NCBI GenBank assembly: GCA_903813345.2
Contig: CAIIXF020000009.1
Location: 25,270,740-25,334,739, forward strand
Reading direction: 5' to 3'
Source of the DNA: Owenia fusiformis
Lineage: Eukaryota > Annelida > Polychaeta > Sabellida > Oweniidae
DNA: 64,000 nt
The position numbers were made by a program, and so were the translations under genes. Under the pieces are notes generated by a model. That model had not been told where the DNA came from. It did not search any database and was given only the letters and a program-made list of their open reading frames with translations. This document shows positions 45,486 to 54,400 of this stretch, piece after piece; the stretch's first letter is position 1, and each line of letters opens with the position of its first letter.

Positions 45486-48400
45486 GTAAGTAGAATATTT
45501 AATTGATTTATACATATTTGTTATCAAAACTATTGATAAGATATTTCGTATCACCAATAGTAAATACAAGTATTTCGTGCTTTAAATGCATGCTACAATG
45601 ATCAACAACGTCATTTATAAAAATCAATGAGCTGAGTATGTTACAGAAGATCTCAATTATAAGGCAAAAACAATTAGTTTGATCTGAAAAAGATTCACGA
45701 GGAAAACGTTCATAAAAGAACTCAATACCTATTTGTGATCAAAGAATACAACAACAAAAAATCTGATTTTTGTAAAAACTTACAGCATCAATAGGCCTTC
45801 TTACAAAACCTGTGTTATGTAAAGATTAACCAGCTAGTCACATTGTCACAATGCTAAAGCAGTAGTGGGATTTCTTTTCAAGCCTTGGTATTTTTAGAAA
45901 AACCTAAGTTTTGTATTAACGTTTGTATATGGTCCAAACGCAGACTTTTCCTGATTTTTATTTCGAATATTCAGAGAGTTTTAGATACATAGGCATTATT
46001 TGAACCAATTACAAAATTGTTCTTTAAAATATACTCTTACTGCTTGTGACACAGTTACATAGTTTATCTTTATGCCCCCCCCCCCCGTGCATATTCGGAC
46101 ATTCCAATAATTAAAGTACTACATTTTATTCAGAATAGCAGGACCGATGACTCGAGTTCCACGGAAGAAGAAGATAATACAAATTCTATTGAAGAAGAAG
46201 ACGGTCCAGGTAAAATCTAATTCAATTATTTTAGGCCCAAATGTAACTTTATTTAGCAGTGTCAGAAGATATTGACAAGTCTACATGAAATAAAGTAAAT
46301 ACAAGTTGCATATTATTGTATTAGTGGTTTAGCTTACATTACAACAAATATATATACAGTAAAACCTGGCGTAGTGAACATCTATCTCTAGTGGACACAC
46401 TCTCTCCCTGTAGTGAGCACCTACCAGCACTGAACGTTTTTATCGACAAAAAATGGTCAATATGTACATGTTTTACTGTAAAACTCGTTTCACCACTCAC
46501 AAAGAGACTTTAACATTTAGAAGTTTTCATTTTCGACCTTATAAAGTGAATTTTGAAATAATTGTATGTCATTTGAGATAAATAAGACATGTCGTTCTGT
46601 TTGTTTCGTTCTGTGTACATGCTCCTAATAATTCATAGTTATGTATTTAAAGCTGAGCCCGGAGTGAAAAATGACATGCCCTGTCGTATTTGCTTCAACG
46701 ATCCTACTGTTATCATTAATTGTCCTCTATCTCTATATTAATCAACAAAAAAGTATCATTGAAGTCTATAAACATCAATCAAACTCGGCTGAATCAATCC
46801 ATCAATTTACGGTTATATCCTTTGATTAGACATGCGTATATTGTTCCTGCAATGTCAGTCCCTAATAACCTTATTAATAGTCTAGCTACAAGCCCTTGTG
46901 ACCCCCTCCCCCACTTCACATCTTTGTGAGAGGGTCTGTAGTCAAGTAGGAGAGGGGGGTCACAGGGGATTGTAGCTAGATTACCTTATCACGCCTCGGA
47001 TATTCATCATGAAAATTTCGAATTCATTCATAGCTTATTTTTCCATTTACACCAAAGGTTGGACATTTAAGACTTTCATTATTTCGTCGTTTAATTCGAA
47101 TAATTAATTTATATTGACTAACTAGTGTTATGATCTTTAGTGATTTTGTATCTTTGAGATGATTTTATAGAAAATAGTTTGCAATGTGTGAAAAGAATTT
47201 AAGCCTTGAATTTTTCACACATTGCAAACTATTTTGTATAAAATCATCTCAAAGATACAAAATCACTAAAAGAATATATTTTCAATTAAACTTTTTGCAA
47301 GGACCAAGTATTGCAAAACTCAATTTCTCGGATTGGCTGGAATCGGACACACCTTGCCTTGCTATGTGTGAATTCTTCCTTACAAAATTGATGAACTTCT
47401 GTCGGATGAAATTTTCATTTTCGTCATTTTCACCAAGAAGGAGGTCGATTTTATCCAAATAGTTTACCCTTATGTTAATTTTAGCATCCGGTTTTTTTGT
47501 TGTTTTTTTAAATAACATTTATTGTCCTTTTAAATCAACGTACAATTACATATTAACATCAATCATCATACAAAAATAAACATACCTATCTTACAAATTT
47601 AATATCTTTTGTTTGTTAAACTCGCTTTTAATATTACATGTACCTAAATAGTTTTGACAGTTAAAAATTTGGATTGTTTTTCTTGCTAATAGAACTTCTT
47701 TATAATTAGAACATGTTTGAAGACCTAAAATTTGTTCATCTGACAAATTGAAATTATTCCAAATATCATTAACTTTATTACATTTAATAAAATGATGTAC
47801 AATAGTGTCATTTACACCACAATGGTCACATAAAGGAGAATTTTTAATTTTGAACTTGAACAGGACCGAATTACAAGGATAGATATTGTGAAGTGATTTC
47901 CAATGTAAAATACGGAGCACATTTTCATTATGAGCTCGCAACTAAGAGCTTTTATCAATTTTTACATTGTTCATTAAAACATCCACATGTCTACGTTTGA
48001 CAAATTCATTTCTAAAATCTGAACTGGTACATTGTGTCATGTCTTTACCCATAAAATTCATTTTAACTTCATTAACATTCAAATTTTCAACAATAATCGT
48101 TTTGCCAATATTGGCTTTTAAGCCTATATATTGAATTGGGGTTGTTGCATTTTTTCCAATGATATGAGACAATTGTTCATATGGCATTATTTCATTATTA
48201 ATACAGATGTCTTTTAAAAAGTTAATGCCCTTTTTAATCCAATTTTTAAAACAAACTGTTTTTCCACTTATTTTGATTAGATTATTGTTCCAAAGAATTG
48301 AATTATCAATGTTAGCTGGAGCTTTGTACTTCTGCCAGCATCCTAGCATTTTGTCATAAAATTCTGGCAGTTCAGAATTGTTAATGTCACCGTTACATTT

Positions 48401-51400
48401 AAAAATAGTTAAATTACATGCATAGATGTTACAATAATATGTAGACAGACATCGCCAGTGGCCATTTCCCGGTACAAACAACAATTTTATCCACTTGAAA
48501 ATGAAAGCAATCTGCATGTCAAACATATTTAACATTTTTAAGCCACCTTTGTCATAATTTTGAACCAGTATGTTGCGCTTTACTTTTTCAGGTATATGTT
48601 TCAACTCTTCTTCCTTGTATTTGCCTTTAGCCCAGATGAATTTAAAAAAAAGTGTTCATTCTTTTTAGCATAGTGTCAGAGAGAATAAAACTCTGCATTA
48701 AATATAAAAACTGTGATGCTAGCAGGGCTTTTACCAATGTGACTCTACCATACATTGTTAAGTTTGTCATGGACAACATTTTCATTATGTGTTCACATCT
48801 AGCAAATCGTGGTTCCAAGTTCTCTCTTATTTCAGTAACATTTTGAGTAGTGCTATACAAAATACCTAAAATTTTAACATTGTTACTTGGAAATAATTTA
48901 CATTTTACATTTCCTATTGTATAATTGTTGAACTTCCATTTACCTAGCCATAATGCCTCAGTCTTATCTTTGTTCATCTTTAAACCTGATATATGCGAAA
49001 ATTCATCAACAAGATTCAAGACACTCTTGAAGGAGTTGACATCACTTACAAAAATGGTGGTGTCATCTGCATATTGCAGAATTTTGACCTCATCATTTGG
49101 CAAGCGTACCCCAACAATGTTTTTATCATGCCTTACTTTACAAGAAAAAAGCTCTGCCGCTATAATATACAGGAGCGGAGATAGGGGGCACCCCTGCTTT
49201 ATACCTCGCTCTAATAAGATTTCACCACTTAACCAACCATTATAATTAATGTAACTAATACAATTATTGTTCAAAGTTTTGGTCCATTGTATAAAGGATT
49301 GCCCAAATCCAAAAATTGATAGAGAATCATACATGAATTCTTTAGAAATACTATCGTACGCTTTAATGCAATCTATTGCCAAAAGAATACCATGCTCTTG
49401 CTCATCATCAAGATAATTTATTACATCATCAATAGTTCTCAATATTAGGCTACTCGATATTTGGGGAATATATCCACATTGATCTTCGTGTACAATTTTT
49501 GCTACAACAACTTTTAACCTATTGGCTAAAACCTTGGCTGCTATCTTGTAATCAACATTTGTTAAAGTGAGGGGTCTCCAGTTTTTTAGAACGTTTCGAG
49601 GCAAGTTTTTCTTGGGGAGTAAAGTTATAAGACCTTCACGTTGGGTACAAGATAAAAAACCCTTATTGAAACCATCATTCAGTGACTGAGTAACAAAAAA
49701 CATATTTTAGACCAAAACACTTTATAAAATGCTGCAGTTAAACCATCCAGACCTGGGCTAGAATTGTTTTTCATTGTTTTTAAGGCAAATATACAATCTT
49801 CATTTGTAATCAAGCCATCACAAAAATCAGAGTCAGATTTATCTAACTTAGGAACTGGAACATCCTTTAAAAAATCATCTAAAATAGCCCTTCTATAAAT
49901 CTTCCGATCTGAATACAATTCTTGATAAAATCTCACTTGTTCTTTTATGATAACATTTTGATCATTAGTCAATGTACCATTGGATAATTTTAAAGATGTC
50001 ATAACCTTACTTTTCATTCTTGCAGTTTCTAGTTGTAAAAACTATTTATTACTTCTTTCCCCTTTTTCTGCCCAAACAGCCTTAGAACGTAAAAAAGAGC
50101 CATGTGTCTTAGAAGCAGAGAGGAGATCAAACTGTGCCCTAGCTTGATTTACATTTTGGTTTAACTGAACATTACTAGGATCATAACATAACTTTTTACA
50201 GGCATTTGTCAACTTTACTCGAACGGAAAATTTTCTTTAGCAAGTTGTTTACCATAACCAATAGAATAGGATTTGATTTTTGATTTTAAGCAATCCCATT
50301 TTATCTGAGGGTCAACATTTGTCTGTGCCTGTGCATCATTAATTATCTCATTTACATTATCTATATACTCAGAGTGCTGTAAGAAACTGTTATTTAGTTT
50401 CCAGTAAGAAGGACCCTTGTTCTTCCTAGAAGAATCCAAGCACATCAAATAACCCCTATGGTCTGAGTTGGGAATACTTAAAATTTCAATGTTAGTCCCC
50501 TTATTAAAACAAAGATCATTTGTAAAAACATAATCTATGCGACGCAAAATTGGTTTATTCTTATGCTTCCAAGTATATTCCTTCTCGTTTGCATGGAACA
50601 ATCGCCATACATCACAAAAATCCATTGAAACCTGTTATCTCAGCCTGAATGTGTTTTTTACCACCGATATTATCCAATGCTGGATTTAATACACAATTCA
50701 TATCACCAGCTAAAATCAAATTAATATCATCAGTTACATAGTATTTTTGTTATTATTGTTATTTCAGAGTAAAAATGTATCTTATCAGCATTATTACTTG
50801 GAGCATATACATTAAAACATAGATACTGCTCACTGTCATGTTTAAATTTTATACCAAATAATCGATCATCTTTATGACATATTTCAAAATCTACAATATC
50901 AAAAGACTTGTTTACTATAATTAATTCACCTCTACTATGTGGAGTGCCACAGTTGGCATATATTTTAGATCCCCAATCAATACTCCACTCTTCAATAAGT
51001 TGTTCTGTTATATAACTTTCTTGCACAAAAGCTAAGTCACACTTGTTTTTTTTTAAAAAACTGAAAAAAAGTATGACGGGTCAATTTCCGACGTAGTCCT
51101 TGAACATTTCCACTAAAGATCGTTACCATAATTATCTATAAAAGTTAATGCGCAATACATATTAACCATTAGACAGACCTTGCGGCCCGATTGGTTTTGT
51201 TCTAATAAAAGCGCTCTTCCCCGTAAGGGCGGAGCTTGGTTGCATGTATTAGCTCTAGAATTACTACAGTTATCCAAGTAACTGTGTACGATCTAAGGAA
51301 CAATAACCGATCTAATGAGCCATTCGCGGTTTCACTGTGTGAAAGTCTGTACTTAGACATGCATGTCTTAATCTTTGAGACAAGCATCCGGTTAATGAAT

Positions 51401-54400
51401 AGCGAATAAGTCACAAGTATTTACATCCAATGGCTCCAATTTAATCGAGTGAGAACTCCTTACTTCAGCAACAATTCGACCATTTTGTTATAAAGACGTA
51501 ACGAATCCATCTATGCTATCAAGGTTTTTCCACCGGACCCCTTTAAAAGGAATACCCCAAATCCTCCTGACACTGACTTTCCACTTAAACACACCGGGTA
51601 CAGAAATCGATATAACATCCCACATCTGACACCAATGTAATCATCCGTGGGCAACCTCGAGACAACGAAATAACAAACTGACACATTATATCAATGCAGT
51701 GAGACAGGCCAGATAATACAAAAACTTCGTATTATCATATTTTCATATTGTCTTAAGATTGATTGGATTTGGAATATGCATATTGACCTTTAAGACTAAT
51801 GCATTTTGGAAGTAAGTAAGCAAGATAATCTCAATGTAAGGTCGGTACATAATCTGAGGTTCACAAATTTTAAGCTACTGAGCTTCAGTACAAGATTATC
51901 TATTCACGCGCTCTAAACTTTTTATAAACACCTTATGTTAACATAGGTTTTTAATATAATTGATGATGTTATCATCATGATCTGATTCAAAATTGTGTTA
52001 GCCATAGTGCATAAGATATGGGTTATTCTTCGAGAGGATTTCATTTCAACGAATAACTTCCCGCTAGAATTCAAAGAATTTATTTTGTGAGCAAACGTTT
52101 CTAATTGGATTTAGCCCCCTCCTATGTGTCTTTTGAAAAACCTTACTATTGCAAAATATTCTAAATACTGTAACAGTTATTATACTTGACCGACACTTGA
52201 GAACAATATTATATACATTTGGCTATCCTTTCTAAAATCTAACAATCTATGGTTCTTAGAACAATCTGAAACAACTATCAGGTTTTCTAACAGCTATGCA
52301 CTCAAATATTGAATGCAAACTGCACAAGATGGTGGATATGGTAGCAGTATTTTGAATATTTGGTCATAACTTTCCTCGAAGTACTAATACCTCTCGTTCA
52401 CCGATGCCATGTAAAATTATTTATAAAATAGGTAATTCTAAAGTTGAAATTACCCGACTAAAAACCTTATAACCAATCATGTAAAATTGCCCTCTGTGAT
52501 AGGGTAGTTTTAGTAATGTGATACCGTGCGATATCTATACAATAGGTAATTTTAGTGATGTTAGCGTGCGGTCACTGCGGTATGTATGTAATAGGTAATT
52601 CAGTAATTAGGTATACCATTGATACCACATAGTATTAGTACGTTACAGAATAACCTATCATCAAGGGTAATTTTACACGATTGATTACAAGGCTTTCCAT
52701 CCTTATCTTCCTAATATTACCTTATAAATTGAGCCGTATTTTGACTTACAAAATTACTTGGGTGATATGTATATTAGATATTATTGATCATTCCATCTCC
52801 CATCATAGTGATTGAATACAGCTCATGACAATATTTTCCAAAGATGTTTTATTGATACAGGAAGTAAAATGAAGTAAATAACATCTGGATTATCGGCGTC
52901 AATATTTGTCATGTTCTTGTGGCATAACATAGAATTAATATTTGAAACCACCCAAGCAAATCTGATGACAACTCAGCTTAAGCTCTAATTCATAATCAAA
53001 TATATGCAAGATTATGGGACTTTTTAGATCAGACAAAAATTCAAAGCATCAAATTCATTGAGTTTTACAATGTGTAATAGATAATAGTGTAATAGATGGT
53101 ATCATAATGAACTGGGCGTCAGACCAGAATCAGATAGGTCAAGGCACTCCGGAATGGAAATTAGGGAAAAATAAATGTAACTTTCAAATTCTCTGTAATT
53201 CCTCAAATACAAGCATTTTGGGGGATTTCTTGAAAATGTGCGTTGCGTAAGTACGAACAAATAAGGTATTGTTACGTAATGCAGCATGTGCTTCAAAACG
53301 AGGCAGTTTCGTATTGATGGCCACGTGTGACATTCATTTTATCCTCAACATATTCGAATGTACTCATACGTAGCTAATCTTTATAATCTAGTTCTGTTGG
53401 ATGAGATATGAGTGAAATAAGGAAAAATAGTGAAACATATAGGATAGGTTGGAAATTGATAATTTTCTACAATTTAAATATATGTTTTTGGCGATGATGT
53501 GCAACGTCCAAAAATAATGGAAACATGCGTCACTCGACTTGAATGTTGTAAGCTTATACAATGCGTCTCAAAAAACGAAACTAACAAAAACATTATGGAA
53601 ACCCTTACTAGGCCTACATAATAAATTTTACTAAATCCTGTATAGTAAAGATTTGTTTCATGTTAGAGAAATGTGGCCAAGCTGAATTCTCAATTACTGA
53701 ACAGTGCAAACCGCAAACAGTCGTTTACCCCTTGTCAATTATTGCTTCAATATTAATATACATTGATATTACAGATGACGGATTGGGCAATCCCGACGAA
53801 AGGGGAGGTAAGTTTTTATTTTATTTCCTTCTTATACCTAAGAAATACATAACTTGTATGTTAAAATTCCTGTTGTCGCATGTATATATCGATTATAAAG
53901 ATAGAGACTCGACTAGAAACTGGAACTGAAAGCGGTTTGAAATATAGAATACAGATATGGCCCTGCTATTTCAATGTTATTTTGATCACCTCCTAAAATA
54001 CTATTGAAAATATGCAATTAGATAAATTAATACAGATCCACTAAAACTGTCAAACGAAATCACTTAACTAAATCAGTTGTTAACCTTCACTTCAAAAACT
54101 TTATGATTATATTAAGTATGTATATCATGAAATTTTTGCTGTGTATTGTCTGAAACCCCCCATTGGAAATACCTATGTAATGTATATGATGTGTTTTAAA
54201 TATAGAACATGTTTTGTTCTAGATGGCGATATGAGGGGTTGGGAAGACCTTATGGGTCCGCCGGACGATAACGTATGCAATCAGTAACAATCAGTAATGT
54301 ATAGAAATAACATAAAAATTAAAAAAAATATGTCATCCCATGGGTACCTAGAAAGAAATGCAAAATATTTACCTTTAAGTTACACTATGTATTTTTGATA

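Follow-up and report, generated by a model that had tools for sequence, protein, structure and literature searches.

Our analysis of a 64,000-nucleotide stretch of the Owenia fusiformis genome (hereafter the window) reveals that positions 47483–51393 are one insertion, in which a 5'-truncated L1-like LINE with an 18S rRNA head lies inside a single 11-bp duplication. On the minus strand, the order is flank, AACCGGATGCT, 18S rRNA, LINE, A-rich tail, AACCGGATGCT and flank. The LINE occupies about 47492–51171 of the minus strand, with its A-rich tail at the left end, and the 18S rRNA segment (nucleotides 28–243 of the rRNA) occupies 51172–51387 of the same strand, in the sense orientation relative to the LINE. 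The two parts meet at position 51171 (minus strand), where alignments to relatives of the LINE and to rDNA place a single T that is common to both. The copy of a non-LINE RNA is joined directly to the 5' side of the LINE, and the A tail stands at the LINE 3' end. The exact 11-mer AGCATCCGGTT is found at 47483–47493, on the A-tail (LINE 3') side, and again at 51383–51393, on the 18S side, where its first five bases are also nucleotides 28–32 of the 18S rRNA. These positions bear out an earlier note on this DNA, which had described a contiguous LINE and sense 18S fragment jointly enclosed by an 11-bp duplication. The length of the duplication is best given as 9–11 bp, because its last two bases (AA in LINE sense) are indistinguishable from the A tail on the LINE side.

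The 216-bp 18S segment aligns with nucleotides 28–243 of the 18S gene in the rDNA unit L002 at 213 of 216 positions, and with that of a second unit, L004, at 212 of 216, both alignments being ungapped. Two of the three differences from L002 are common to both units, and the third falls at a site that varies between L002 and L004. An extent from nucleotide 25–30 to nucleotide 235 had been read from the sequence before; its start holds, at nucleotide 28, and its end was close, being found at nucleotide 243 in the alignment to L002. The unit L002 is a full-length match to the Rfam family SSU_rRNA_eukarya. A search of Rfam at E ≤ 1 did not report the 216-bp fragment of the window itself, so the 18S identity of the segment rests on its DNA match to the rDNA.

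Across its length, the LINE in the window is 93–97% identical to four other copies, on contigs C12, C3, C5 and C7. Its ORF2 is broken into several frames, and one of these open pieces, at 48645–49703 on the minus strand, holds the reverse-transcriptase stretch (Pfam RVT_1, E 2.5e-34). The assignment of the LINE as L1-like is a prediction from the ORF2 of the relative L006, not from that of the broken window copy. In a search with 834 residues of this ORF2, residues 1–818 find human L1 ORF2p as the closest solved structure (E 4.9e-76), with R2 proteins at 1.5e-14, and Pfam reports RVT_1 at 1.2e-34 and, for the APE-type endonuclease, Exo_endo_phos at 24.2 bits, slightly below the cut-off of 24.5.

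All four near-complete relatives (C12, C3, C5 and C7) share at least 60 bp upstream of the point at which the window copy is truncated, which indicates that the LINE RNA was left in mid-template. Compared in pairs, the relatives share about 0.3 to 1.1 kb upstream among the stretches fetched, and these lengths differ among them, so the full 5' end of the LINE is not fixed by this comparison. ORF1 frames are present in three of the four relatives (C3, C5 and C12), with CCHC-type motifs recognized by eye in C3 and C12, and the C7 relative has no ORF1 frame over 150 residues. The truncation point lies within the last ORF1 codons, 7 nt before the ORF1 stop in the C5 relative (L017), and corresponds to a position 40 nt upstream of the ORF2 ATG in L006. 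Elsewhere in the family, five copies of one LINE piece (query 604–1050) lie within about 115 kb of C12 (30371639–30486219), as if carried in a locally duplicated unit.

The site of insertion can be followed in other copies of the host repeat. The two flanks, joined around a single 11-mer, served as a query against the genome, with 40 of 263 first-look candidates scored. Among the 70 matches listed, 46 cross the join by at least 10 bases on both sides, two correspond to the flanks in the window and the remaining 22 are short or one-sided. In all 20 host-repeat copies that were fetched, the alignment is unbroken across the join: the 11-bp site occurs a single time, and 18S and LINE sequence are both absent; these copies were picked from matches already crossing the join, and the count is accordingly not itself a test but a demonstration that uninterrupted copies exist. 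The exact 11-mer is kept in five of the 20 aligned copies (L038, L044, L047, L050 and L053), and the rest carry base changes or a small gap. Since the paralogous host-repeat copies display the empty site, the 11-bp repeat is a true target-site duplication around both parts. A chance repeat, which had been named beforehand as a way in which the reading could fail, does not fit flanks that align continuously, with a single 11-mer, to other copies of the host repeat. An empty allele of the window locus was not found: among the matches listed, only the two flanks in the window reach 100% over most of either joined flank.

By the joined-flank search and the alignments, the insertion target is one arm of a dispersed foldback repeat, the left part of which lies at 47374–47482 and the right part at 51394–51472 (both on the plus strand). 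In the paralogue L048, the foldback repeat has inverted arms of about 200 bp, and several of the joined-flank matches form closely spaced inverted pairs; the window flanks gave no second arm. To the left of the insertion, two hairpins are seen at 47136–47270 (93% over 137 aligned positions) and 46881–46980 (85% over 40-nt arms), which are perhaps short foldback elements. The microRNA matches at these hairpins are below gathering scores and may reflect hairpin shape only.

The divergence of each part was counted separately. In a five-copy alignment, 3439 columns can be compared, and at 38 of them (1.1%) the window LINE has a private substitution; it also has 10 private indel events and differs from the nearest copy, that on C3, at 61/3653 positions (1.7%). 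In the 18S part, 3 of 216 positions differ (1.4%), or 2 (0.9%) when the site variable among rDNA units is omitted. The two parts thus seem similarly diverged; this is an agreement and not a date, and a weak agreement, because the private LINE changes may include some that arose in the source lineage before insertion and because the 18S count is small. Taken with the paralogous empty site, the similar divergence suggests that both parts were inserted at the same time.

The earlier note had proposed a search of the genome with the 18S–LINE junction. A 501-bp junction query returned 16 matches (16 of 16 candidates scored), among which the window alone covers both LINE and 18S. As far as such matches can tell, the insertion looks like a single event, although assembly gaps could hide further copies. 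The whole 18S, used as a query, returned 13 matches (11 of 11 candidates scored). The rDNA contig C501 accounts for five of these and an rDNA copy on C10 for two; the others are the window itself, three isolated fragments from inside the gene and two 3'-end pieces. The last five, outside the rDNA, lie at C4:9423541, C4:5335823 and C7:38321451, with the 35–38-bp 3'-end pieces at C108:21929 and C4:1738548. No LINE copy of the window family is present within 4.5 kb around each of C4:9423541 and C4:5335823, within 9.5 kb around C7:38321451, or within 4.1 kb around each of C108:21929 (where 1500 N are included) and C4:1738548, and these five pieces were rejected as further chimeras with this LINE.

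Several of these loci have features of their own. The two internal fragments on C4 (L056 and L057) are diverged 18S sequences away from rDNA, at 84% over nucleotides 754–937 and 87% over nucleotides 1122–1254. Near C7:38321451, two 18S pieces are found at 952–1030 and 1181–1248 of L011, matching nucleotides 66–144 at 94% and nucleotides 78–145 at 87%; they are about 230 bp apart, and each is followed by similar non-18S sequence, as in an internally duplicated 18S pseudo-fragment. A search for further copies of this whole unit found none among 40 of 265 candidates scored. Near the C7 18S piece (L058), a 46-bp match of 82.6% involves sequence flanking the C3 copy and not the LINE itself. On C10 near 25645000 (L009), an rDNA copy away from C501 follows an LSU match and has 18S matches that lack nucleotides 544–979; it is apparently a degraded unit. 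With regard to RNA heads on other LINE copies, Rfam gave 0 matches at gathering scores over 20 of 20 loci (19 5' flanks). It missed the window's own 18S piece too, so that this null result says little about rRNA heads, and the scan of the 19 other 5' flanks gives no grounds either way for a habit of switching in this LINE.

We consider that the insertion was probably made by one target-primed reverse-transcription event with a template switch from LINE RNA to 18S rRNA. In this event, the LINE endonuclease would have nicked the host repeat at about GGTT/AATG (plus strand), and the freed target end would have primed cDNA synthesis at the A tail of a LINE RNA. The reverse transcriptase would then have copied the tail and all of ORF2, left its template in the last ORF1 codons, and resumed on 18S rRNA at about nucleotide 243, where the 18S resembles the LINE sequence just copied. 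Copying would have gone on in the direction of the 18S 5' end. The target end of the top strand (...ATGCT) would then have annealed to cDNA bases matching 18S nucleotides 28–32, and second-strand synthesis would have closed the insertion, leaving the 11-bp duplication. We infer the switch during reverse transcription, the position of the nick and the order of these steps. A jump of the reverse transcriptase from LINE RNA to 18S rRNA, which the earlier note had considered the simplest reading, is still the best one for a single duplication around both parts, a sense 18S segment and relatives that extend upstream, with the reverse transcriptase as the presumed author of the join. Twin priming is disfavoured because the 18S is in sense.

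Sequence similarity is found at both joins, to different extents. At the outer join, the target bases ATGCT are identical to 18S nucleotides 28–32, with exactly 5 nt in common, and a match of five or more occurs at 1 of 1741 18S positions, namely the one used. The 5-base microhomology (AGCAT) that had been read at this junction is real, as the 18S and the duplication overlap in the alignment. At the inner join, a single T is strictly common, and the LINE sequence just copied imperfectly resembles the 18S next to the resume point. With an 18-nt window and a gap cost of 2, 7 of 1721 18S positions score equally well or better; the corresponding numbers are 4–12 of 1721 for windows of 14–24 nt and 27–55 of 1721 for a 10-nt window. 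A first count of this similarity had given 4 of 1730, or 10 of 1728 when one base either way was allowed. The test was designed after the junction had been seen. In addition, the inner-join score of 7 obtained with L002 falls to 5 with the rDNA unit L004, a score that 30 of 1721 L002 positions reach, and this dependence of the inner similarity on the choice of rDNA unit has led us to grade the template-switching reading slightly lower.

Flank repeats were also counted in 13 truncated copies of the LINE, chosen from 49 matches (40 of 156 candidates scored). Repeats of 9–20 bp are present in 7 of the 13 copies as compared with 7 of 156 mismatched flank pairs, and the remaining six copies have no flank repeat of 9 or more. 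In five of the seven copies with repeats, the repeat overlaps the LINE start by 1–8 nt, which makes annealing at the 5' join look like the usual course in this LINE family. At two of the 13 copies, unexplained fillers of 5 and 16 nt stand between the repeat and the LINE.

A more specific version of the switch may be imagined because the switch point is near the ORF1 stop and ORF2 start, where a ribosome would end ORF1 and restart. The 18S acceptor would then be that of a small ribosomal subunit which had not yet left the LINE RNA, and the reverse transcriptase would have hit this terminating or re-initiating subunit and jumped to its rRNA. We regard this as a very improbable refinement; if it were true, LINEs with 18S heads would have their switch points clustered at the ORF1/ORF2 junction.

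The main rival to a switch during reverse transcription places the join before it. A broken LINE RNA could have gained, by ligation at its 5' end, an 18S fragment ending at about nucleotide 243, with normal retrotransposition of the fusion RNA to follow, a route proposed for U6/LINE-1 chimeras (Moldovan et al. 2019, as summarised in PMC13174262). Such a ligation predicts the equal orientation, the single duplication and the similar divergence just as well, but it gives no reason to expect the resemblance at the inner join (equalled or bettered at 7 of 1721 positions, and weaker with L004) and requires that both RNAs be cleaved with ligatable ends, and we judge it possible but unlikely. Capture of rDNA or 18S cDNA as filler during end-joining repair of the LINE 5' end seems distinctly improbable. 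It would account for the common bases at both joins, and the fillers of 5 and 16 nt at 2 of the 13 other LINE copies are of a kind with it, but the 18S piece is wholly inside the mature 18S and in LINE sense, whereas captured DNA could be in either orientation or carry spacer.

Two separate insertions, of the 18S fragment and then the LINE or the reverse, are hardly credible given the single duplication that encloses both parts, the similar divergences and the aligned paralogous sites without both parts. Furthermore, the longest string common to the LINE's own edges (its 18S side and its 3' flank) is an A-rich one of 7 nt, so the LINE alone shows no duplication. What this reading has on its side is that the empty sites compared are paralogous and none is orthologous. 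As for a reproducible 18S-headed composite family, the alternative raised in the earlier note, we found no point in its support: the junction occurs once, spanned only by the window among the 16 matches (16 of 16 candidates scored), and the five 18S pieces outside the rDNA have no window-family LINE in the stretches around them. We give this alternative practically no weight.

Chimeras of LINEs with U6, U3, 5S, tRNA, 7SL and 28S are known, and switching of LINE-1 onto other RNAs has been described (PMC13174262). The 28S rRNA/L1 chimeras reported there (18 cases, mostly sense, 83%) resemble the window insertion in that an rRNA fragment of a few hundred nucleotides lies at the LINE-1 5' side and the parts were inserted together. 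The window chimera is distinct from these in having 18S rather than 28S, a different L1-like element and a different genome. The U6/LINE-1 and 5S/LINE-1 chimeras of the same source are likewise made of two parts with target-site duplications, with U6 in LINE sense, but they mostly contain a full-length small nuclear RNA, or 5S that is typically antisense, whereas the window holds an internal 18S fragment. The chimeric WEIRD/MGL retroelements of Magnaporthe (PMC2104539) offer a further parallel, with a template jump onto a cellular RNA from the RNA of a non-mammalian LINE; as described there, they are recurrent and have a GCC*A/U switch motif, whereas the window represents one event with no GCC on the LINE side of the join. 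The truncated tailless 18S/28S retropseudogenes of human (PMC5322556) are also copies of 18S rRNA in a genome, including two 5'-truncated 18S cases, but unlike the window they are not described, in the portion of that source drawn on here, as fused to a LINE. A further source (PMC2912911) discusses microhomology and template jumping at the 5' ends of L1.

The main text of PMC13174262 nowhere uses the terms '18S', 'SSU' or 'small subunit', and no 18S/LINE chimera was found in the open-access literature; the earlier remark that 18S is less usual as a LINE partner stands. To judge from these sources, the kind of event is already known from mammals, and the 18S partner is apparently new.

Taken alone, the window chimera is one event, with no sign of function. 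It is a well-framed case, with an empty site in a repeat, relatives that continue upstream and a separate divergence count for each half. The insertion adds 18S rRNA, and an L1-like element of this genome, to the known range of rRNA/LINE chimeras, and with a set of such cases it could be asked whether sequence similarity guides the reverse transcriptase in its choice of a new template.
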